Made by a program: the position numbers and the translations under genes. Below, piece after piece: positions 5,500 through 62,324 of a DNA stretch of 64,000 nt. Under the pieces are notes generated by a model, which saw nothing but the letters and a program-made list of their open reading frames with translations, ran no database searches and was not told the DNA's origin. Source of the stretch: Tepidiformaceae bacterium (GTDB lineage: Bacteria; Chloroflexota; Dehalococcoidia; Tepidiformales; Tepidiformaceae); the NCBI GenBank assembly GCA_958295975.1, contig OY282446.1, positions 2,023,289 through 2,087,288 of the forward strand, in the 5' to 3' direction. Numbering within the stretch: the stretch's first letter is position 1; each line of letters starts with the position of its first letter.

Positions 5500-7454
5500 C
5501 CGCACGCTGGACCCTGACCGCCATCGCCGCCGCGCTGGGCGTGGCGCTGGCCGCATCCGCGGCGCTCGCGCAGCAGACGGGCGGCGTCGCCGATGCCGAC
5601 GGCGACGGTCTCATCGAAGTCTCCTCCCTCGAACAGCTCGACGCCATCCGCTGGGACCTCAATGGCGACGGCGTGGCGGACGACGCGGCCAACGACTCCT
5701 GCCACGCCGCCGCGTTCGACGGGCCCCCGGGCTGTCCCAATGGCGGCTGCAGGGGCTACGAGCTGACGCGGAGCCTCGATTTCCGCGATCCCGCCAGCTA
5801 CGCCTCCGGCGCGGTGAACGCGGCGTGGACGGCGGACGCGGGCTGGGCGCCGATCGGCAGCCACCGCAATCCCTTCACGGGGACGTTCGAAGGCAACGGC
5901 GAGACCATCGCCAACCTCTTCATCGACCGTCCCGACCAGCGCTACGTGGGCCTGTTCGGCGAAGTCGCCGGGACCGTTCGCGGGCTCGGCGTGGTGAACG
6001 CGCGCGTGAACGCCGAGGATACGGCGGGCGGGCTGGCCGGAGCGAACAGCGGCATGGTCGCCGACAGCTACAGCACGGGCGCGGTCTCCAGCTTCAGGGA
6101 TTCCGGCGGGCTGGTAGGGTCGAACTACGGGGACGTCGTGCGCGCTTCCTCGGCGGCCTCCGCGGTCGCGGTCAACGTGGTCGGCGGGCTGGTCGGCATC
6201 AACTACGGTGCCATCGCCGACAGCTCCGCCACCGGCAAGGCGACCGGGCGCGGGCGCGTGGTCGGCGGGCTGGTCGGCATCAACTTCGGCGAGATCGGCG
6301 GCAGCTACACCACGGGCCAGGCGGCGGCCAGCGACGTCGTCGGCGGGATCACCGGCCTCAACCAGGGCCTGATCAGCGGGAGCTACACCACCGGCCTGGT
6401 GTCGGCGAAGGGGGACGACGCCGGCGGGCTCGCGGGCATTAACTACGACACCATCCGCGGAAGCTTCAGCATCGCCCGCGTGTCCGGCCAGCATCGCATC
6501 GGCGGCCTCGCCGGGATGAACCGCGTCTCCGGCGCGATCAGCGGCAGCTACGCCACGGGGCGCGTCTCCGGCATCGTCGGCGTTGGCGGGCTGGCTGGCT
6601 GGAGCATCGGGTCCATTGACACGAGCTACGCCACCGGCGACGTGTTGGCGACGGAGAGCGACGTTGGCGGGCTGGTCGGGCGCAACGGCGGCGCCATTCG
6701 CGTCAGCTACGCCACCGGCGACATCACCGCCAGCCACCGCGTGGGCGGGCTGGTCGGCTACAGCAACGGCGACGGCGAAATTCGCGACGCCTACGCCGCC
6801 GGTACCGTCTCCGGGCAATTCGAGGCGGGCGGGCTGGTCGGCTGGAACGCCGGCGACATCGGCGCCAGCTACGCCACGGGCGTGGTGACCAGCATCCGCG
6901 ACACGGGCGGGCTGGTCGGCGAGAACGAGGCGAGCGGCGCCATCACGAACAGCTACTGGGACGTCGAAACGTCCGGCCTCGCCGTGGGCGTGGCCTATGG
7001 CGACCCCCAGGGCGCCCAGGGCAAGACGACCTCCACGCTGCAGACGCCCCCTCCCGCCGACGTCGCGTGCGCCGACGTCTTCCCGCCTCCCGCCGAATGC
7101 ACCTTCGTCAGCTGGGACGGCGACGTCTGGGACTTCGGCGACGGCAGCCAGTATCCGGCGCTGAAGGCGGACCTCGACGGCGACGGCGTGGCATCGGCGG
7201 GGGAGTTCGGCGCGCAGCCGGGGACGGTCGCCCAGCGGCTTTCCACGCCCTCGCTGGAGATCGCCCGCCTGCTCAGCGGCATCGCCCGGTCGCTCGACGT
7301 CGACGGGGCCGTGGCGCGCGCCCACATGGCGCGGGCCGCCTGCCGGAATGCGATCGACGCCCTGTCGGACGTGCGGCCGGCCAGCGACGGGGCGCGGCGC
7401 GGCGCCGTGGCCCTCATCCGGCTCTGCATCGACATCGACCGCTCCTCGCGCTAG
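5496..7454 (+). CDS. Secreted GLUG-repeat protein
   Basis: A 652-residue exported protein. A Sec signal peptide occupies residues 1-26 (LTAIAAALGVALAASAALA before QQ). Next comes a short acidic D-x-D-G-D-G-L-I-E-V segment of calcium-binding type, then about a dozen GLUG units of 25-30 residues between roughly residues 165 and 490. Each carries a variant of VGGLVG-x-N-x-G followed by SYATG. A SYWDVETSG segment follows and closes the array, as in other GLUG proteins. The C-terminal 150 residues are of unknown type. GLUG domains are found in secreted or adhesive proteins, and no enzymatic activity is implied. It starts within the dapF stop codon (ATGA), an unlikely functional partner, and may simply be read through. 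Confidence 0.85.
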   Translation: MTARWTLTAIAAALGVALAASAALAQQTGGVADADGDGLIEVSSLEQLDAIRWDLNGDGVADDAANDSCHAAAFDGPPGCPNGGCRGYELTRSLDFRDPASYASGAVNAAWTADAGWAPIGSHRNPFTGTFEGNGETIANLFIDRPDQRYVGLFGEVAGTVRGLGVVNARVNAEDTAGGLAGANSGMVADSYSTGAVSSFRDSGGLVGSNYGDVVRASSAASAVAVNVVGGLVGINYGAIADSSATGKATGRGRVVGGLVGINFGEIGGSYTTGQAAASDVVGGITGLNQGLISGSYTTGLVSAKGDDAGGLAGINYDTIRGSFSIARVSGQHRIGGLAGMNRVSGAISGSYATGRVSGIVGVGGLAGWSIGSIDTSYATGDVLATESDVGGLVGRNGGAIRVSYATGDITASHRVGGLVGYSNGDGEIRDAYAAGTVSGQFEAGGLVGWNAGDIGASYATGVVTSIRDTGGLVGENEASGAITNSYWDVETSGLAVGVAYGDPQGAQGKTTSTLQTPPPADVACADVFPPPAECTFVSWDGDVWDFGDGSQYPALKADLDGDGVASAGEFGAQPGTVAQRLSTPSLEIARLLSGIARSLDVDGAVARAHMARAACRNAIDALSDVRPASDGARRGAVALIRLCIDIDRSSR

Positions 7455-7474
7455 CGCCGCTCCCCGCGCTCGCG

Positions 7475-7480
7475 TATCGT
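7475..7480 (+). promoter_or_regulatory. -10 box of the Rieske oxygenase gene (TATCGT)
   Basis: TATCGT lies 39 bases upstream of the ATG at 7520. A CTGGAG ribosome binding site is at about 7509-7514, so this transcript has a conventional leader. Confidence 0.4.
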
Positions 7481-7519
7481 GGACGCATCACCCGCGCGCC
7501 GTCGCGCCTGGAGCCGCCA

Positions 7520-8797
7520 ATGGTCATCGAAACCGGCTACACCACCCCCACGGAGAAGGCCCACGAGCCCGTCCTCGGCACGGAGCTCATCCCCAAGGAG
7601 CGCTACACCTCCGAGGAGTACATGCGCCTCGAGTGGGAGCGCATGTGGACCAAGGTCTGGAACATGGCTGGGCGTGAGTCCGACATTCCCAACGTGGGCG
7701 ACTACTTCACCACCGAGCTGGGGCCGGAGTCGTTCCTGATCGTGCGCGAGGCCCCGGACAAGGTGCGCGCCTTCTACAACGTCTGCCCCCACCGCGGGAA
7801 CCAGATCCGCAACGCGGGCATGGGCCACGCCGAGTCCTTCCAGTGCGCCTACCACTTCTTCGAGTTCAACCTGGACGGCTCCAAGAAGTTCGTGCCGGAC
7901 GAGGACACCTTCACGCAGGGGGTGCCGCAGGAGACGGCGTTGGTGGAGGTGCCCTGCGACACGTGGGGCGGGTTCGTGTGGTTCAACATGAACCCCGACG
8001 CCGAACCCCTGCTGGAGTTCCTGGGCGTCGTCGCCGGACACCTCGCGCCCTACCACTTCGAGGACTACGCCATCGCGCAGGACATGACGATCGAGTGGGA
8101 CTGCAACTGGAAGGCCTCGGTGGACGCCTTCAACGAGGTCTACCACGTGCAGGGCATCCATCCGCAGCTGCTGGAGTCGCTGGACGACATCCACGTGCAG
8201 ATCGACCTGTACGAGCGGCACAACCGCTACCTCGTGCCCTTCGGGCTGGTCAGCCCGCGCTACCCGAACCAGACGGAGGTGACGCAGCCGCTGCGCGAGT
8301 TCCTGCGCGGCGCGGGCGTCGATCCCGACTCGTTCACGGGGAGCATGGGGGATGTGCGCCCGGCCATGCAGCGGGCCGTGCGCGCCAGCGCCGAGGCGCA
8401 GGGCCTGGACGTCTCCGGCCTCAACGACGACCAGATGTCGGACGACTACCACTACTACCTGTTCCCTAACCTCACCTTCAACATCACGGCCCTCGGCTTC
8501 GGGTTCTTCCGGCAGCGCCCGCACCCGACCGACCCGAACAAGATGTACTTCGACCTGCAGGGCTACGTGCGCGTGCCCGAGGGCGCGGAGCCGCCGCCGC
8601 GGCCCGTGCACAGCCAGCACCGGCACGGCGAAATCTCCATCGGGCTGGTCATGGACCAGGACTCCTACAACCTGCCGCGCGTGCAGAAGGGGATGAACTC
8701 CCGCTCCTACAAGGGGCTGCTCATCAACTACCGCGAGCGGCGCATCCGCCACATGCACCAGACCCTCGACGACTACCTCGAGGGTTCCGACCGCTAG
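7520..8797 (+). CDS. Rieske non-heme iron oxygenase, catalytic (alpha) subunit
   Basis: A 425-residue ring-hydroxylating-type oxygenase. The Rieske 2Fe-2S cluster ligands are Cys89 and His91 (CPHRG) and Cys109 and His112 (CAYH). The mononuclear iron site is in D-x3-E-x2-H-x4-H form: Glu206, His209 and His214 in FNEVYHVQGIHP, with the third ligand expected from a later Asp. It would use electrons from a separate reductase or ferredoxin to hydroxylate or demethylate an organic substrate. No beta subunit or reductase gene is adjacent. The substrate cannot be inferred. It is monocistronic: its own promoter lies upstream and a strong hairpin follows the stop. Confidence 0.9.
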   Translation: MVIETGYTTPTEKAHEPVLGTELIPKERYTSEEYMRLEWERMWTKVWNMAGRESDIPNVGDYFTTELGPESFLIVREAPDKVRAFYNVCPHRGNQIRNAGMGHAESFQCAYHFFEFNLDGSKKFVPDEDTFTQGVPQETALVEVPCDTWGGFVWFNMNPDAEPLLEFLGVVAGHLAPYHFEDYAIAQDMTIEWDCNWKASVDAFNEVYHVQGIHPQLLESLDDIHVQIDLYERHNRYLVPFGLVSPRYPNQTEVTQPLREFLRGAGVDPDSFTGSMGDVRPAMQRAVRASAEAQGLDVSGLNDDQMSDDYHYYLFPNLTFNITALGFGFFRQRPHPTDPNKMYFDLQGYVRVPEGAEPPPRPVHSQHRHGEISIGLVMDQDSYNLPRVQKGMNSRSYKGLLINYRERRIRHMHQTLDDYLEGSDR

Positions 8798-40365: not shown

Positions 40366-40917
40366 CTAGAGCGCCGCGAGGATGACGCCGGTGGCGATGC
40401 CGATGGCGGCGAGCAGCAGCGTCGCCGTGCTGGCGATGGCCACGCCCAGCCGCACGGTCATGCGCTGCTCAAGGACCGCCATGTCGGTGGCGACGTCCTT
40501 GCGAAGGGCGGCCATTTCGGTGGTGAAGTCCTTGCGGAGGGCGGCCGTTTCGGTGGTGAAGTCCTTGCGGAGGGCGGCCGTTTCGGTGGTGAAGTCCTTG
40601 CGCATGGCGGCCATATCGGCGGCGAAGTCCTTGCGCATGGCGGCCATATCGGCGCGCATGGCGGCCATATCGGCGGCAACCTCCTGGCGGAAGGCTCCGA
40701 TCTCGCTGGCCGTCTCCTTGCGGACGGCACTGAACTCGCTGGCCATGTCCTTGCGAAGGAGGGCGATGTCGCCCTTGAGGAGGGCGATGTCGTCCTTCGT
40801 GGCGAGGTTCGCGCCGATGTCCTCGGCGAAGGCGTTGACGAGCGCGTCCGCCTGCTTCTCCGCGAAGCCCGCGTCCCGCAGACGGCGGGAGGCCTTGAGC
40901 GTGTCGAACGCCACCAT
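40366..40917 (-). CDS. DUF1640-like coiled-coil membrane protein with 11-residue repeats
   Basis: A 183-residue protein resembling the DUF1640/CCDC90 group. The head domain (1-45, DTLKASRRLRDAGFAEKQAD and the following ALVNAFAEDI) is followed by a long helical stalk (45-150) and a C-terminal membrane helix (VAIASTATLLLAAIGIATGVI). The stalk is made of hendecad units such as FTTETAALRKD, encoded by near-identical 33-base DNA repeats. Hendecads make right-handed coiled coils, so the protein is probably a trimeric or tetrameric rod fixed to the inner membrane. ATG 40917 has TACGAT six bases upstream. Role unknown. Confidence 0.8.
   Translation of the reverse strand: MVAFDTLKASRRLRDAGFAEKQADALVNAFAEDIGANLATKDDIALLKGDIALLRKDMASEFSAVRKETASEIGAFRQEVAADMAAMRADMAAMRKDFAADMAAMRKDFTTETAALRKDFTTETAALRKDFTTEMAALRKDVATDMAVLEQRMTVRLGVAIASTATLLLAAIGIATGVILAAL
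40495..40680. repeat. In-frame 33-base tandem repeats within the coiled-coil gene
   Basis: The units 40528-40560 and 40561-40593 are identical; 40495-40527 and 40594-40626 differ at a few positions. Shorter 15-18-base derivatives continue to about 40680. Each unit encodes one 11-residue hendecad, so unit gain or loss keeps the frame and changes rod length. Confidence 0.9.
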
Positions 40918-41427: not shown

Positions 41428-42372
41428 ATGGTTGCGATTCCCACGGCGGCGGGCGCCGTCGACCACGCCGATCTCGGCGCCACGCTCATGCACGAGCACG
41501 TGTTCATCCGCTCGCCGGGCGTCTTCGAAGCCTGGCCCGAGCTGTGGAACCGCGAGGCCGAGGTCGACCACGCCGTTGAGCGCCTGCGCGAGCTGAAGGC
41601 GGCGGGCATCGACACCATCGTCGATCTGACCACCATCGACCTCGGGCGCGACGCCGCCATGGTGGCCGAGGTGGCGCGCCGGGTCGACCTCAACGTCGTC
41701 ATGTGCACGGGCGTCTGGCGGCAGCCCCCCAACCTCTTCCAGCGGCTGGAGAGCGACGACATCGCCGACCTGTTCGCGCGCGACATCGAGCGGGGGATCG
41801 AGGGCAGCGGCGTGCGCGCGGGCGTGATCAAGCTGGCCACGCAGCCCACGGTGGACGCCGTGAACGAGAAGATGCTGCGCGCCGGGGCCCGCGCCCATCG
41901 CCGCACGGGCGTCCCCATCAGCACGCACAGCGACGTCACCACCGAATCCGGCCTCGCCCAGCAGGACGTCTTCGAAAGCGAGGGCGTGGACCTGTCGCGC
42001 GTCGTCATCGGCCACTCCGGCGACAGCGCCGACACGGACTACCTGCGCCGCATCATGGACCGCGGCAGCCTCATCGGCATGGACCGCTTCGGCATCGACC
42101 GCACCCTGGACACGGAGGGGCGCGTGGCCACCATCGCCGCGCTCTGCGGCATGGGCTACGCGGAGGGCATGGTCCTCTCGCACGACGCCAACTGCTTCAT
42201 GGACACCCTGCCGCGCGAGACGCGGCGCGAGACGATGCCGAACTGGCACTACCTGCACATCAGCCGCGACGTGCTGCCGGCCCTGCGCGCGCGGGGCGTG
42301 ACGGAGGGCCAGATCGAGGCGATGCTGACGGGGAATCCGCGGCGCTTCTTCGCGCGCAGCGGCCCGTACTAG
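41428..42372 (+). CDS. Phosphotriesterase-family metal-dependent hydrolase
   Basis: A 314-residue amidohydrolase-superfamily TIM barrel. Metal ligands are in MHEHVF (H-x-H near residue 21), the bridging Lys in GVIKLA near 134, His in ISTHSDV near 170 and VVIGHSGDS near 198, and Asp in LSHDANCF near 252. All the expected ligands are present. Members hydrolyse lactones, phosphotriesters or related esters; most such enzymes in environmental bacteria are lactonases. The gene is monocistronic, and its stop overlaps that of fmdB within CTAG 42369-42372. Confidence 0.9.
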   Translation: MVAIPTAAGAVDHADLGATLMHEHVFIRSPGVFEAWPELWNREAEVDHAVERLRELKAAGIDTIVDLTTIDLGRDAAMVAEVARRVDLNVVMCTGVWRQPPNLFQRLESDDIADLFARDIERGIEGSGVRAGVIKLATQPTVDAVNEKMLRAGARAHRRTGVPISTHSDVTTESGLAQQDVFESEGVDLSRVVIGHSGDSADTDYLRRIMDRGSLIGMDRFGIDRTLDTEGRVATIAALCGMGYAEGMVLSHDANCFMDTLPRETRRETMPNWHYLHISRDVLPALRARGVTEGQIEAMLTGNPRRFFARSGPY

Positions 42373-42650
42373 AAGTCGTCGTCGAAGTCCCCGCCCATGT
42401 CGAGGCCGCCCATGCCGCCCATCCCGCCCATGCCGGACATGTCCGGCATGTCCCCGCCGCCCATGTCGCCGAGGTCGTCGAAGCCGCCGCCGCCGGAGGT
42501 GGCGCCCACGCCGATGATGGCCGCGCCGAAGATGCGGTGGGCCCGCTTGCCGTCGTCGGGGCAGCGCGCGCCCTGGCCCGCCTTGCTGACGGGGCGCGTG
42601 CGATCGAACGTCTTTCCGCAGGACGGGCAACGGAATTCGTAGACGGGCAT
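42369..42650 (-). CDS. FmdB-family zinc-ribbon protein
   Basis: A 93-residue protein. The first 40 residues are the FmdB/CxxC_CxxC_SSSS zinc ribbon: PVYEFRCPSCGKTFD with CPDDGKRAHRIF, where the second pair is reduced to C-P-D-D, so one metal ligand is missing. The rest is a Gly-Met-Asp-rich tail (repeats of GGMGGM and DMGGDFDD) typical of these proteins. Function is unknown, though a putative regulatory or metal-related role has been proposed for the family. Promoter TACCAT (42692-42687, minus) and GAGGAG precede the ATG. Confidence 0.85.
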   Translation of the reverse strand: MPVYEFRCPSCGKTFDRTRPVSKAGQGARCPDDGKRAHRIFGAAIIGVGATSGGGGFDDLGDMGGGDMPDMSGMGGMGGMGGLDMGGDFDDDF

Positions 42651-42738
42651 GGGGACCGGCTCCTCTCGCTGCGTGCGATGGGGCGAATGGTAGCACAGGC
42701 GGAGGCCCGCGCCGCGTGCGGAAGCGCCGTCCGCGCGC

Positions 42739-42744
42739 TACCAT
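42739..42744 (+). promoter_or_regulatory. -10 box of tRNA-Arg (TACCAT)
   Basis: TACCAT ends ten bases before the 5' end of the tRNA gene. Confidence 0.4.
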
Positions 42745-42754
42745 CGTTCCGCGA

Positions 42755-42829
42755 GCCCCCGTAGCTCAGTGGAAAGAGTGTCGGCCTCCGGAGCCGAAGG
42801 CAGAGGTTCGAGTCCTCTCGGGGGTACCA
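42755..42829 (+). tRNA. tRNA-Arg, anticodon CCG
   Basis: Cloverleaf with acceptor GCCCCCG/CGGGGGT (one G-U pair), D-arm GCTCAGTGGAAAGAGT and anticodon stem TCGGC/GCCGA enclosing CT-CCG-GA. The T-arm is CAGAG-GTTCGAG-TCCTCT, the discriminator is A, and CCA is encoded at 42827-42829. Coding sequence that looks like a gene fragment begins two bases later. Confidence 0.93.
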
Positions 42830-42830
42830 C

Positions 42831-42956
42831 GCCAACGGCGGGGACGGCATGGGCACGGACATCGACTGTCTCGCCATCGGCGACTGCTTCCTGCGGAAGG
42901 AGGAGCAGGACCCGTCGCTCCGCACCGACCACGCGAACGCCTTCGAGCCGGATTGA
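42831..42956 (+). pseudogene. C-terminal remnant of a carbamoyltransferase (NodU/CmcH type), 35-codon frame
   Basis: ATG 42849 to TGA 42956 encodes a 35-residue peptide beginning MGTDIDCLAIGDCFLRKEEQ and ending NAFEPD. From memory this matches the extreme C-terminus of NodU/CmcH carbamoyltransferases, where a Phe-Met-(R/G)-T-E-x-D-x-L-x-(I/L)-G segment is followed by a Lys-Glu-x-Gln tail. Nothing of the other roughly 550 residues remains: upstream in frame are only six codons before the tRNA-Arg gene. The TGA overlaps the deacetylase ATG (TGATG), so it may still be translated and couple to that gene. Alternative reading: a genuine small leader ORF. Confidence 0.5.
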
Positions 42957-43972
42957 TGGACGGGGACGCGAACGCGAGCCGCACGCCCTTCATCGTCACG
43001 GTCGACGTTGAGGGGGACGACGCGTGGTCGCGGCCCGCGCGCACGACCACGCGCAACGCGGCCTTCCTGCCGCGCTTCCAGCGGCTGCTCGAGCGGCACG
43101 GGTTGCGGGCCACCTGGCTGGTGGAGCACGCCATGGCGCAGTCGCCCGCCTTCCGCGAGTTCGGGCGCGATCTGCTGGCGCGCGGCGCGGGCGAGATCGG
43201 CATGCACCTCCACGCCTGGGAGACGCCGCCGCTCACTCCCCTGACCGCCGACGATCGCCGCCGCCAGCCCTACCTCACGGAGTACCCGGACGACGTGATG
43301 CGGGCCAAAATCGAGCGCCACACGGGCCTGCTGGAGGAGACCTTCGGCACGGCCATGGTGAGCCATCGCGGCGGGCGTTTCGCCTTCGACGAACGCTACG
43401 CCCGCATGCTGATCGAGCGCGGCTACCGCGTCGATTGCTCGGTCACGCCCCACGTCGACTGGCGCGGCACACCGGGCGGGCTGGGCGGCGGCCCCGACCA
43501 TTCGCGCCTGCCGGAGACGCCCTGGTGGATCGACCCCGACGACCTCACGCGCGCGGGCGGCTCGCCCCTGCTGGAGGCGCCGGTGACCATCGCCAGCCAG
43601 TGGCCGCGCTGGCCGGGGGGTCCCCGTGGCGGCGGGCGCTGGCCCCTGCCCTGGCGCGCGCTCAACCGCGTCTTCCCCGACATCGTCTGGCTGGGCCCCC
43701 AGCGGCGCACGCTGGGGCGCTGGGCGCCGCGGGTCGTGCGCGGGGCGGCCCGCGCGGGCCGCTCGCACCTGGAGTTCTTCATCCATTCCTCCGAGCTGAT
43801 GCCGGGCGGCAGCCCGCGCTTCCGCGACGAGGCCGCGATCGAGGAGCTCTACGCGGGGCTGGACGCGCTCTTCGCCGTCGCCGCGCGCCATTGCCGCCCC
43901 ATGACGCTGGCGGAGTTCCGCGACTGGTACGCGCGGGTTTCGCCGCCGGAGGATGCCGGTGGCGGGGCCTGA
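42956..43972 (+). CDS. Polysaccharide deacetylase-like protein
   Basis: A 338-residue NodB-homology protein of the WalW/exopolysaccharide type. The first metal/catalytic segment is FIVTVDVEGDDAW (Asp pair near residue 17), the metal-binding pair is GEIGMHLHAW (H-x-H near 83), and RGGRFAFDE follows near 135. These deacetylases remove acetyl groups from N-acetyl sugars of surface polysaccharides. Its ATG overlaps the stop of the preceding remnant. The FFIHSSELMPGGSPRF segment near the end is typical of the glycan-cluster subgroup. No other polysaccharide gene remains beside it. Confidence 0.85.
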   Translation: MDGDANASRTPFIVTVDVEGDDAWSRPARTTTRNAAFLPRFQRLLERHGLRATWLVEHAMAQSPAFREFGRDLLARGAGEIGMHLHAWETPPLTPLTADDRRRQPYLTEYPDDVMRAKIERHTGLLEETFGTAMVSHRGGRFAFDERYARMLIERGYRVDCSVTPHVDWRGTPGGLGGGPDHSRLPETPWWIDPDDLTRAGGSPLLEAPVTIASQWPRWPGGPRGGGRWPLPWRALNRVFPDIVWLGPQRRTLGRWAPRVVRGAARAGRSHLEFFIHSSELMPGGSPRFRDEAAIEELYAGLDALFAVAARHCRPMTLAEFRDWYARVSPPEDAGGGA

Positions 43973-43985
43973 CGCGCGACGGGCG

Positions 43986-43991
43986 TATACT
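43986..43991 (+). promoter_or_regulatory. -10 box of the men operon (TATACT)
   Basis: TATACT lies 12 bases before GTG 44004 and 87 bases before GTG 44079, both in frame with menF. It is the only clear promoter before the operon. Confidence 0.5.
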
Positions 43992-44078
43992 GCGCGCGGA
44001 GCGGTGAGCGGCCGCACAGCGGACCGTTCGCGCCGGACCTATCGTCGGAGCGATGACGCGCATGGTGGGCCGCCTCGC

Positions 44079-45494
44079 GTGACCGGGATCGAGACCGCCG
44101 GGCCTCCGGCGGCCAGCGCCGCCTCCGCCTCCGCGCTCGACCTGGCGGACGAGCTGCTGCGCCTGCGCGCGGACGCGGGCGGCGCGGGGCTGGCCAGCGT
44201 GGCCCTGCCCCCCGCCCTGCTCGGCGGCGCGGCGCGCTGGAGCGGGCGCCAGCTGCGGGCCGCCGCCGCCGTCTCCTGGGAACGCCCGGCGGAGGGCGTG
44301 GGCCTGTTCGGGTTCGGGCGCGCGCTCGACCTCGCGTCCGCCGCGGGCGCGCCGCTGGGGGCGGCGGCGACCGCCCTGCGCGAGGCCGCCGACGGCCTGC
44401 GCGCGGGGGCCGTCGAGCGGCTGGCGCGTCCCCGCTTCTTCGGCGGCGCGCGCTTCGACGCCAGCGCCCCCCGCCGCGATCCCGTCTGGGAGGATTTCGG
44501 CGCCTGGCGCTTCGTCCTGCCCGAGATCCTGCTGGCGGCGCGTGGGGACGAGCGGTTCGCCTCGCTCACGCTCGCCGTGCGCCCGGGCCAGACGCGCGAG
44601 GAGGTGGCCGGAGTCGTGAACGCCGCCGTGGCGCGGCTGGCGACGCCGCTCCCTTCCGCGCCCCCCGCCGCGCGCGCGGAGTCCGGCGGTCCCGACGCCG
44701 TGCGCTGGCGGCGGGCCGTGCGGCGCGCGCTCGCCGAGATCGAGGCGGGGCGCTACCGCAAGGCGGTGCTCGCCCTGCGCGTGCGCTGCGCGGCGGACGC
44801 GCCCCACGACGCGGCGGCGGCGCTCACGGCCCTCGCCGCGCGCTACGGGGAGTGCTTCGTGTTCGGCTACCGGCTGGGCGAGGCGAGCTGGATCGGCGCC
44901 AGCCCCGAGCTGCTCGTCTCGCTGGAGCGCGGCCGTCTGCGCGCCTCCAGCCTGGCGGGCACGCGCGCGCGCGCCGCGGACGAGGCCGAGGACGCGCGCC
45001 TCGCGGGCGAGCTGCTGGCCAGCGGCAAGGAGCGCGCTGAGCACGATCTGGTGGCGCGGGCCACGCGCGCCGCGCTCGCGCCCCTCTGCCGCGAACTCTC
45101 CGCGCCGCCCGCGCCCGGTCTCCTGCGCATGGCTGGCATCCAGCACCTGCACACGCCCCTCGAGGGGAGCGCCGCGCCCGGCGTGGACGCCCTCGACGCG
45201 CTGCTGGCCATGCATCCCACGCCCGCCGTGGGGGGCTGGCCGCGCGAACCCGCGCTGGAGGCCATCGCCCGCATCGAGGGCATGGACCGCGGCTGGTACG
45301 CGGGGCCGATCGGCTGGATCGACATGCAGGGGGATGGCGAGTTCGCGGTGGCCCTGCGCTCCGCCCTCGTGCGCGGGCGCGAGGCCTTCCTCTACGCGGG
45401 CGCGGGCATCGTCGAGGGCTCCGACCCCGACCGCGAGCTGGCCGAGGCCGAACTGAAGCTGCGGCCCCTGCTCGACGCCCTGCGCGGGACGTGA
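44079..45494 (+). CDS. menF: Menaquinone-specific isochorismate synthase
   Basis: It converts chorismate to isochorismate, the first step of menaquinone synthesis. The 471-residue chorismate-binding enzyme shows the conserved C-terminal catalytic half: EIEAGRYRKAVLALRV, GASPELLVSLERGRLRASSL, LAGTRARAADEAE, the metal-binding KERAEHDLV, HPTPAVGGWPREPAL and EGMDRGWYAGPIGWID. The start is uncertain: GTG 44079 avoids a low-complexity basic leader, while GTG 44004 lies close behind the -10 box. Its stop overlaps menD by four bases (GTGA). The MenF assignment over EntC rests on the operon. Confidence 0.93.
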   Translation: MTGIETAGPPAASAASASALDLADELLRLRADAGGAGLASVALPPALLGGAARWSGRQLRAAAAVSWERPAEGVGLFGFGRALDLASAAGAPLGAAATALREAADGLRAGAVERLARPRFFGGARFDASAPRRDPVWEDFGAWRFVLPEILLAARGDERFASLTLAVRPGQTREEVAGVVNAAVARLATPLPSAPPAARAESGGPDAVRWRRAVRRALAEIEAGRYRKAVLALRVRCAADAPHDAAAALTALAARYGECFVFGYRLGEASWIGASPELLVSLERGRLRASSLAGTRARAADEAEDARLAGELLASGKERAEHDLVARATRAALAPLCRELSAPPAPGLLRMAGIQHLHTPLEGSAAPGVDALDALLAMHPTPAVGGWPREPALEAIARIEGMDRGWYAGPIGWIDMQGDGEFAVALRSALVRGREAFLYAGAGIVEGSDPDRELAEAELKLRPLLDALRGT

Positions 45495-60881: not shown

Positions 60882-62324
60882 GTGAAGGTCACGCTTGAAC
60901 GGCTCCCCGAGAGCCGCGTGCAGCTCGAGATCGAGGTGGAGCCCGACCGGCTGGAACGGTCGCTGGACGCCGCCTACAAGCGGCTCGTGCCGAAGCTGCG
61001 CGTCCCCGGCTTCCGCCCGGGCAAGGCCCCCCGCCCCGTCGTTGAGCGCATGCTGGGGCGCGAGGAGCTCATCCGCGAGGCGCTCGAGTCGCTGCTGCCC
61101 GACGTCTACCGCGAAGCCGTCGAGGGCGAGGACGTGGACGCCATCGCCCCGCCCGAGATCGAGGTGCTCGAAACCGAGCCCGTGCGCTTCAAGGCGACCG
61201 TGCCCGTGCGCCCCACGATCACGCTGGGCGACTACCGCGCCATCCGCCTCGACCCCGAAACGGTCGAGGTCACGGACGAGATGTTCGCCGAGCAGATGGC
61301 GCTCATCCGGCGGCGCTTCGCCACCATCGCCCCCGTCGAGCGCGGCGCGCAGTGGGGCGACATCCTCACGGCGGACATCATGGGCACGGTGGACGGCGCG
61401 CCCCTCGTGCAGGACGAGGACGTGGAGTTCCAGCTGAACGAGGGCCAGCGCCTGCTCTTGCCCGGCCTCGCCGAGGAGTTCCTGGGCATGGAGGCGGAGT
61501 CGGAGAAGGCGGTCGAGCTGCCCGTGCCCGACGATTTCCCCGGGCAGGCGCGCGGCGGGACCGCCTCCCTCACGCTCGCCCTGAAGGCGGTGAAGGAGGA
61601 GGAGCTGCCGGAGGAGGACGATGACCTCGCGCGGCAGGTGAACGCCGACGAATTCGAGACCATCGACCAGCTGCGCGAGCGCGTGCGCGCCGACCTGCTG
61701 GAGACGCTCCAGCGGCGCGCCGACGAGGCCTATCGCCTTCAGGCGGTGGACGAGCTGGTGGAGCGCTCCGGCGTCGAGTACCCGGCGGTGCTGCTCGACC
61801 GCGAGGTGGACGAGCTGATCCGCGAGACGCACGGGAGCGACGCGCGCGCCTTCCAGGCCCACCTCGCGCAGGTCGGCCAGACGCCCGCCGAGTTCCGCGA
61901 GTCGTACCGCGAGCCCGCCGCGCACCGCCTGCGCCGCTCGCTCGTGCTCAGCGAATTCGGCCAGGCCGAGGGCGTCGGCGTGAGCGAGGAAGAGGTGGCG
62001 GAGCGCCGCGAGGAGATGCTGAAGCCCCTCGGCGAGAACGCCGCCGCCATGCGCAACGTGTTCGAGAGCGAGCGCGGGGCGGCGGGCATCCGCCAGGACC
62101 TGCTGACGAACAAGACGCTGGACCGGCTGCGCGCCATCGCCGCCGGAGAGGTCGCCGATGATGGCGAAGCCGCCGATGACGCCGAGGCCGCGTCCGAACC
62201 CGTGGTGGCAGCCGACGCCGCCGATGACGCCGACGCTGGCGAGGCCGAACCCGCATCCGAACCCGCGGCAGACGCGGACGCCGCCCCCGAGCCCGAAGCA
62301 TCGAACGAGGAGCACGCCGAGTGA
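60882..62324 (+). CDS. tig: Trigger factor
   Basis: A ribosome-bound chaperone and peptidyl-prolyl isomerase. The 480-residue protein has the ribosome-binding N-domain ([22 protein letters not shown], then [18 protein letters not shown] with the ribosome-contact G-F-R-x-G-K at about 46-51). The FKBP-like domain (about 150-240, [17 protein letters not shown]) and the helical C-domain follow. The last 55 residues are a very acidic Asp/Glu/Ala tail rich in ADDAEA-type repeats, longer than in E. coli. GTG 60882 is chosen because homologues begin at VKVTLE. Its stop overlaps clpP (GTGA). Confidence 0.95.

Follow-up and report, generated by a model that had tools for sequence, protein, structure and literature searches.

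The window analysed here spans 64,000 nucleotides. It corresponds to positions 2023289-2087288 of genome G000, a single contig of 2,401,284 bases with 96% completeness. The locus lies between a tRNA-Arg gene and the men operon for menaquinone (vitamin K), and comprises the following features, numbered by their position in the window.

41428..42372, + strand: phosphotriesterase-family gene, conserved upstream flank (Pfam PTE, E 8.2e-82; syntenic in 8/8 genus relatives)
42369..42650, - strand: zinc-ribbon gene, which we take to be FmdB-like, conserved upstream flank (Pfam Zn_ribbon_8; syntenic in 8/8 genus relatives; beside tRNA-Arg in G017)
42755..42829, + strand: tRNA-Arg(CCG) with encoded CCA (ARAGORN; same gene and same upstream genes in 8/8 genus relatives)
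42830..42848, + strand: spacer of 19 bases from the tRNA 3' end to the first carbamoyltransferase codon (read directly)
42849..42956, + strand: remnant of a NodU-type carbamoyltransferase gene, its last 35 codons and stop (blastp, tail-profile HMM, tails of L112, L113 and L138)
42956..43972, + strand: intact gene for a WalW-type deacetylase with a predicted CE4-like fold, 338 codons plus stop (relatives, structure model, fold search)
43973..43985, + strand: right junction, 13 bases if TATACT belongs to the men operon (TATACT position)
43986..43991, + strand: TATACT, a -10-like element recurring before menF in genus relatives, here 87 bases before menF
44079..45494, + strand: first gene of the men operon and right neighbour of the insert, presumably menF (isochorismate synthase), a name given from family knowledge (tblastn, seven genus relatives and G017)

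The 35-codon open reading frame begins 19 bases past the CCA of the tRNA-Arg, and the TGA that ends it shares its last base with the ATG at 42956 (TGATG). Both of these details had been given in the first-pass annotation and were confirmed by reading the sequence. From the end of the tRNA-Arg to the stop of the deacetylase, the insert measures 1,143 bases.

The likeness of the 35-residue translation to carbamoyltransferase tails was first noticed by eye. Comparison carbamoyltransferases were fetched from genomes of the family and the phylum via Pfam PF16861, and the 31 C-terminally complete ones among the 32 loci formed the tail set (L116 runs off its contig and was left out). By blastp, the 35-mer matched L112 at 54% identity over 35 residues, end to end to the last residue, and it matched L113 at 51% over 35 and L138 at 50% over 36 residues, both reaching the exact C-terminus (E 1e-10 to 5e-10 in this small set of 31 sequences). 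The stop-to-stop frames of L112, L113 and L138 are 688, 688 and 702 residues long, and the gene lengths of L113 and L138, taken from the first start listed, are 682 and 688 codons. An HMM built from the 31 tails, including these three, placed the 35-codon frame at the top of the 974 stop-to-stop frames of at least 20 residues in the window (E 1.2e-5; runner-up E 2), and the score of 22.8 bits was higher than that of any of 5000 shuffles (best shuffle 11.2). The claim that the frame resembles a carbamoyltransferase C-terminus is thereby upheld. The homology begins at the first codon of the frame, 42849, and the six in-frame residues before the first methionine (ANGGDG, in the 19-base spacer) do not align with full-length carbamoyltransferases. 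This places the point of truncation beside the tRNA 3' end, 19 bases off, as had been proposed.

Assignment to the NodU/CmcH-type carbamoyltransferases (PF02543 plus PF16861) calls for both a Carbam_trans_N and a Carbam_trans_C domain. Both are present in L142 and L144, loci that contain the L113 and L138 genes, and neither is found in the 35-mer, for which searches of Pfam, NCBIfam and PDB sequences gave no match. The Pfam C domain of L142 stops 18 residues short of the C-terminus, so that the 35-mer covers only about 17 positions of this domain and is missed by Pfam. Thus, the lack of profile similarity that had been named beforehand as an argument against the reading holds for Pfam and NCBIfam but not for the profile built from carbamoyltransferase tails. 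In L112, L113 and L138, all of which end in FEPD, the counterpart of the 35 codons is the very C-terminal end; both domains are gone here save for the positions of the C-terminal model just mentioned. As both domains are all but lost, no enzyme activity is expected of the remnant. Judged by sequence similarity, the 35 codons are the true C-terminus of a NodU-type carbamoyltransferase and represent a gene remnant rather than a member enzyme. The codon score of the frame (0.514) is below that of ten neighbours (0.566-0.718), but the frame is very short.

The rest of this carbamoyltransferase was not found in the genome. There was no Carbam_trans_C match in the whole genome at E 10, and for Carbam_trans_N only a sub-cut-off match of 12.9 bits; nor does the window genome hold a second copy of the 35-mer or of the deacetylase. 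The first-pass annotation had the partner gene lost or moved; these searches agree with a loss, and the gene did not turn up at another place. A stand-alone 35-codon gene was likewise not seen in relatives, since a search of the other 37 family genomes with the 35-mer returned two matches, in two genomes, with E-values of 0.21 and 0.46 that we take as chance.

The downstream gene is open throughout and intact, as was claimed. An earlier contig scan with the single deacetylase sequence confirmed none of 37 pattern matches, and a profile scan of genome contigs with alignment A2 yielded 403 confirmed relatives, the best 80 of which were kept, some of them on short contigs. Alignments of the deacetylase show 46-48% identity with three relatives recorded under Enterobacter, Klebsiella and Proteus, and 47-56% with 27 sequences picked from the 80 kept contig loci. 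Alignment A3 comprises 28 of 31 rows (the window sequence and 30 chosen from the 80 loci, after removal of L249, which has a stop codon, L219 and L233), and all 28 share residues D17, E19, D21, H84, H86, R138, R141 and H277 (deacetylase numbering). Catalytic roles are presumed for these residues by analogy with the CE4 family.

The gene scores 17.0 bits with Pfam PF01522, below the cut-off of 23.1, and is below the cut-off in NCBIfam as well; none of the 27 relatives in A3 matches PF01522 at E 0.01. A PDB sequence search with the A3 profile gave seven matches (best E 0.0033) to parts of unrelated proteins, taken as chance. The structure model has a pLDDT of 88. In a fold search of the PDB, the five best hits were ArnD and four chains of putative deacetylases (E 1e-9 to 2e-8; TM-score, normalised to query length, 0.47-0.55), with GH57 enzymes and fructose-bisphosphate aldolases as weaker matches. 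According to the model, the protein has a CE4-like fold, though PF01522 falls below its cut-off; this is in line with the earlier naming as a polysaccharide deacetylase. By analogy with its family, the enzyme probably still modifies a surface glycan.

Only the window genome among the 38 of the family has the deacetylase, as no match was obtained in the 37 others. At the level of the phylum, 4 of 399 other genomes gave a match (two at 34-35% identity, two marginal), and searches of phages and viral contigs gave none. The three annotated copies from Enterobacter and Klebsiella that we viewed sit in LPS core clusters, and one of them is named WalW. The window gene resembles these WalW-type deacetylases in its identity to the three relatives and in the same conserved residues, whereas it is located between a tRNA gene and the men operon instead of among LPS core genes. 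The codon score of 0.618 is within the range of the ten neighbours, so that composition gives no hint of import.

The pairing of the two families is rare. A carbamoyltransferase was found in the locus of one of the 80 kept deacetylase relatives (the best of 403), namely L185 from Longimicrobiales. In that locus it stands directly downstream of the deacetylase, is a shorter protein and has a best match of 33% among seven queries. L185 is also the best-ranked deacetylase relative, and its deacetylase and the full carbamoyltransferase form a two-gene islet (5986-8751) whose neighbours, by eye, are tRNA-methylthiolation-type enzymes and a ComEC-like gene. A search of a collection of papers gave no publication joining carbamoyltransferase, polysaccharide deacetylase, tRNA and genomic island, and a search for WalW gave nothing relevant by title among the matches listed.

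Comparison with the genus relatives revealed a conserved left and a variable right side of the tRNA gene. Before the tRNA, all eight carry the same order: rsmD and coaD (names that we assume from family knowledge), two small genes, the phosphotriesterase-family gene, the zinc-ribbon gene and tRNA-Arg. After the tRNA, the gene content differs among them. The men genes lie far off in several genomes, with menD approximately 56, 81 and 32 kb downstream of the tRNA on the same contig in G035, G034 and G028, respectively. In G035 and G034 the gap consists of variable genes near the tRNA followed by a core block common to the relatives, and in G028 this block starts almost directly after the tRNA. 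From the sequences, we read the block as including argG, leuS and ribonucleotide reductase. Its ribonucleotide reductase end is at most 4 kb before menF in seven of the eight relatives; the contig of G029 begins inside menD.

In the window genome, the block of approximately 28 kb is situated in the same orientation at G000:C1:125718-153620, stops some 200 bases short of a tRNA-Arg(GCG)/Leu/Val cluster, and is 460-490 kb away from the tRNA-Arg(CCG)/menF junction if the contig is circular. Both placings of the block, that in the relatives (L090-L103) and that in the window genome, border tRNA genes. A separate stretch, matching G000:C1:2085663-2086193, is located directly before the rsmD-side block in G035, G034 and G028, and after the men genes in the window, which therefore has further synteny breaks (32874 and 62375). 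We also considered whether the 32-kb stretch that separates tRNA-Arg from menF in G028 could be an island excised here; this was ruled out because the synteny shows the core block to be kept in this genome at 125.7-153.6 kb and because the men tree points to adjacency of tRNA-Arg and menF as the older state.

The tree in question was inferred from MenF/D/H/B/C of 16 genomes, taken from the 22 taxa of the men table. It sets the seven block-bearing relatives apart from the window genome with support of 99.9/100 (SH-aLRT/ultrafast bootstrap), and the split holds at 100/99 when G017 is removed. A tree of MenD only (without L072, L073, L074 and L088, which have no anchor motif, and without the partial MenD of G029, G007 and G016) gave the same order with weaker support of 83/93 (ultrafast/SH-aLRT), with G017 on a long branch and of odd composition. 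G017, which belongs to another genus, has the tRNA-Arg, then 69 bases, then the likely menF start (GTG), that is, an empty junction.

With G017 as the sister, the sequence data are most simply explained if tRNA-Arg beside menF is the older state, and the two were probably neighbours in the ancestor. The older junction would then have been kept in G017 and in the window genome, and the block would have moved in between tRNA-Arg and menF in the others. This polarity draws on a single outgroup, since further genomes of other genera showed no tRNA-Arg/menF or block/men junctions: no menF or menD was found in the surroundings of tRNA-Arg in eight such genomes, and none of six block proteins was detected at E 1e-15 around the men clusters of 13 such genomes, two of which are cut short by contig ends.

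The tRNA-Arg(CCG) gene is the left border of the insert. On the right side, TATACT begins 13 bases after the deacetylase stop. The motif occurs within 140 bases upstream of menF in the window and in six of seven relatives, at distances of 14-122 bases, and in G035 it is found further upstream of menF in the alignment. Because its spacing to menF varies this much among genomes, the orthology of the motif is uncertain. Should TATACT belong to the men operon, the right border would be drawn as closely as the left one.

Based on the close junction in G017 and on the men tree, which places the window genome outside the seven relatives, the 1.14 kb are best read as a lineage-specific insertion at the older tRNA-Arg/menF junction that has been reduced to a remnant. 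The explanation that we favour, with moderate confidence, is the import of a carbamoyltransferase-deacetylase pair at this junction and a later deletion that left the tail and the deacetylase. A segment carrying the glycan-modifying pair, with the NodU-type carbamoyltransferase followed by the WalW-type deacetylase, would have entered between tRNA-Arg(CCG) and menF. A deletion with one end at most 19 bases from the tRNA 3' end would then have erased all sequence as far as the 36th-from-last carbamoyltransferase codon, leaving the deacetylase intact with its old stop-start overlap. A deletion next to the tRNA would explain why the first gene is truncated and the second intact, and it is the likely route, not seen directly. 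The larger segment itself is not seen, as no relative has a complete pair at tRNA-Arg/menF; the suggested comparison for a complete carbamoyltransferase upstream of the deacetylase found none in relatives, with Carbam_trans_C at E 1e-5 in 0 of 8 genus relatives.

These same absences, of any larger remnant and of a carbamoyltransferase C domain elsewhere in the genome or in the eight genus relatives, would also be expected if the 1.14-kb fragment had been inserted as it is from imported DNA, through illegitimate or homology-assisted recombination, so that a full carbamoyltransferase was never present. The end of the fragment would in that case have to fall by chance at the tRNA 3' end, and nothing else separates such an event from a deletion; we regard it as rather unlikely. 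A chimera of assembly or binning at the insert would account for its being unique to the window genome among those searched, yet the upstream flank matches that of the genus, G017 likewise has tRNA-Arg next to menF, and the codon usage of the deacetylase matches that of the neighbours, which makes an artefact very improbable.

The position at a tRNA 3' end raises the question of a tyrosine-integrase element that inserted there and was then excised or decayed to a stub, as the first-pass annotation had considered. The left border at the 3' end of the gene and the variable genes between the tRNA and the shared core block in G035 and G034 are in line with such an element, and in having genes absent from relatives directly after a tRNA 3' end the locus resembles the remnants of tRNA-associated genomic islands. 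Unlike in those, neither a repeat of the tRNA 3' end nor an integrase was found in the stretches examined. Only one perfect copy of the tRNA-Arg 3' end exists in the genome; two further matches have three mismatches each (153828, the end of tRNA-Arg(GCG), and 1940497, within a tRNA-length match). A direct repeat was not found at the other border, and 13 stretches from relatives contained none beyond the tRNA itself. None of 18 tRNA-proximal proteins in G035, G034, G029, G031, G030 and G032 is an integrase; three have no match at all and the others belong to ordinary families (histidine kinases, dienelactone hydrolase, aminotransferase). Of the two checks that had been proposed, the genome gave no second perfect tRNA 3' end, and the tRNA-proximal proteins of these six relatives gave no sign of an integrated element. 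An integrase-type insertion has no support and is quite improbable, and of the earlier proposal of deletion or excision it is the deletion that we retain.

The imported pair followed by deletion would leave a deacetylase gene that retains its old stop-start overlap, for which reason the tail may now be a short leader that couples deacetylase translation. The Shine-Dalgarno-like pairing is -3.3 kcal/mol at the deacetylase start and -7.0 at the 35-codon frame, with a median of -4.1 and a 5% quantile of -10.1 for the anti-Shine-Dalgarno pairing of random window stretches. Weak pairing at the deacetylase start and somewhat stronger pairing at the 35-codon frame would agree with translational coupling, though they come nowhere near proving it. 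A scan for consensus promoters and terminators in 42600-44150 found none, which says little because shuffles of this G+C-rich region also give about none (0.0 and 0.1), and read-through from the tRNA is therefore possible. One may picture a putative unit in which the deacetylase is transcribed from the tRNA-Arg promoter and its message freed by tRNA 3' processing, 19 bases ahead of the tail, with the tail as a coupling leader peptide. We consider this improbable; if it were true, expression of a surface-glycan enzyme would depend on a unit made up of a tRNA gene and a broken gene.

The locus is a well-delimited case of one gene of a coupled pair outliving the other beside a tRNA gene. Such leftovers of gene turnover are ordinary; this one leaves the knowledge of both the carbamoyltransferase and the deacetylase family unchanged, and it cautions that a tRNA flank alone is no proof of integrase activity.

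Some minor observations were made in the window. ARAGORN called three further tRNA genes of 96-97 bases that look false: a tRNA-Tyr(ATA) at 43952-44047, spanning the end of the deacetylase and the men leader, a tRNA-Gly at 44231-44327 inside menF, and a tRNA-Lys at 60935-61030. On the - strand, at 40366-40917, a CCDC90-like coiled-coil gene contains repeated units of the AAMRKDF/AALRKDF type, and the corresponding site, flanked by two conserved neighbours, contains no match in any of the eight genus relatives.
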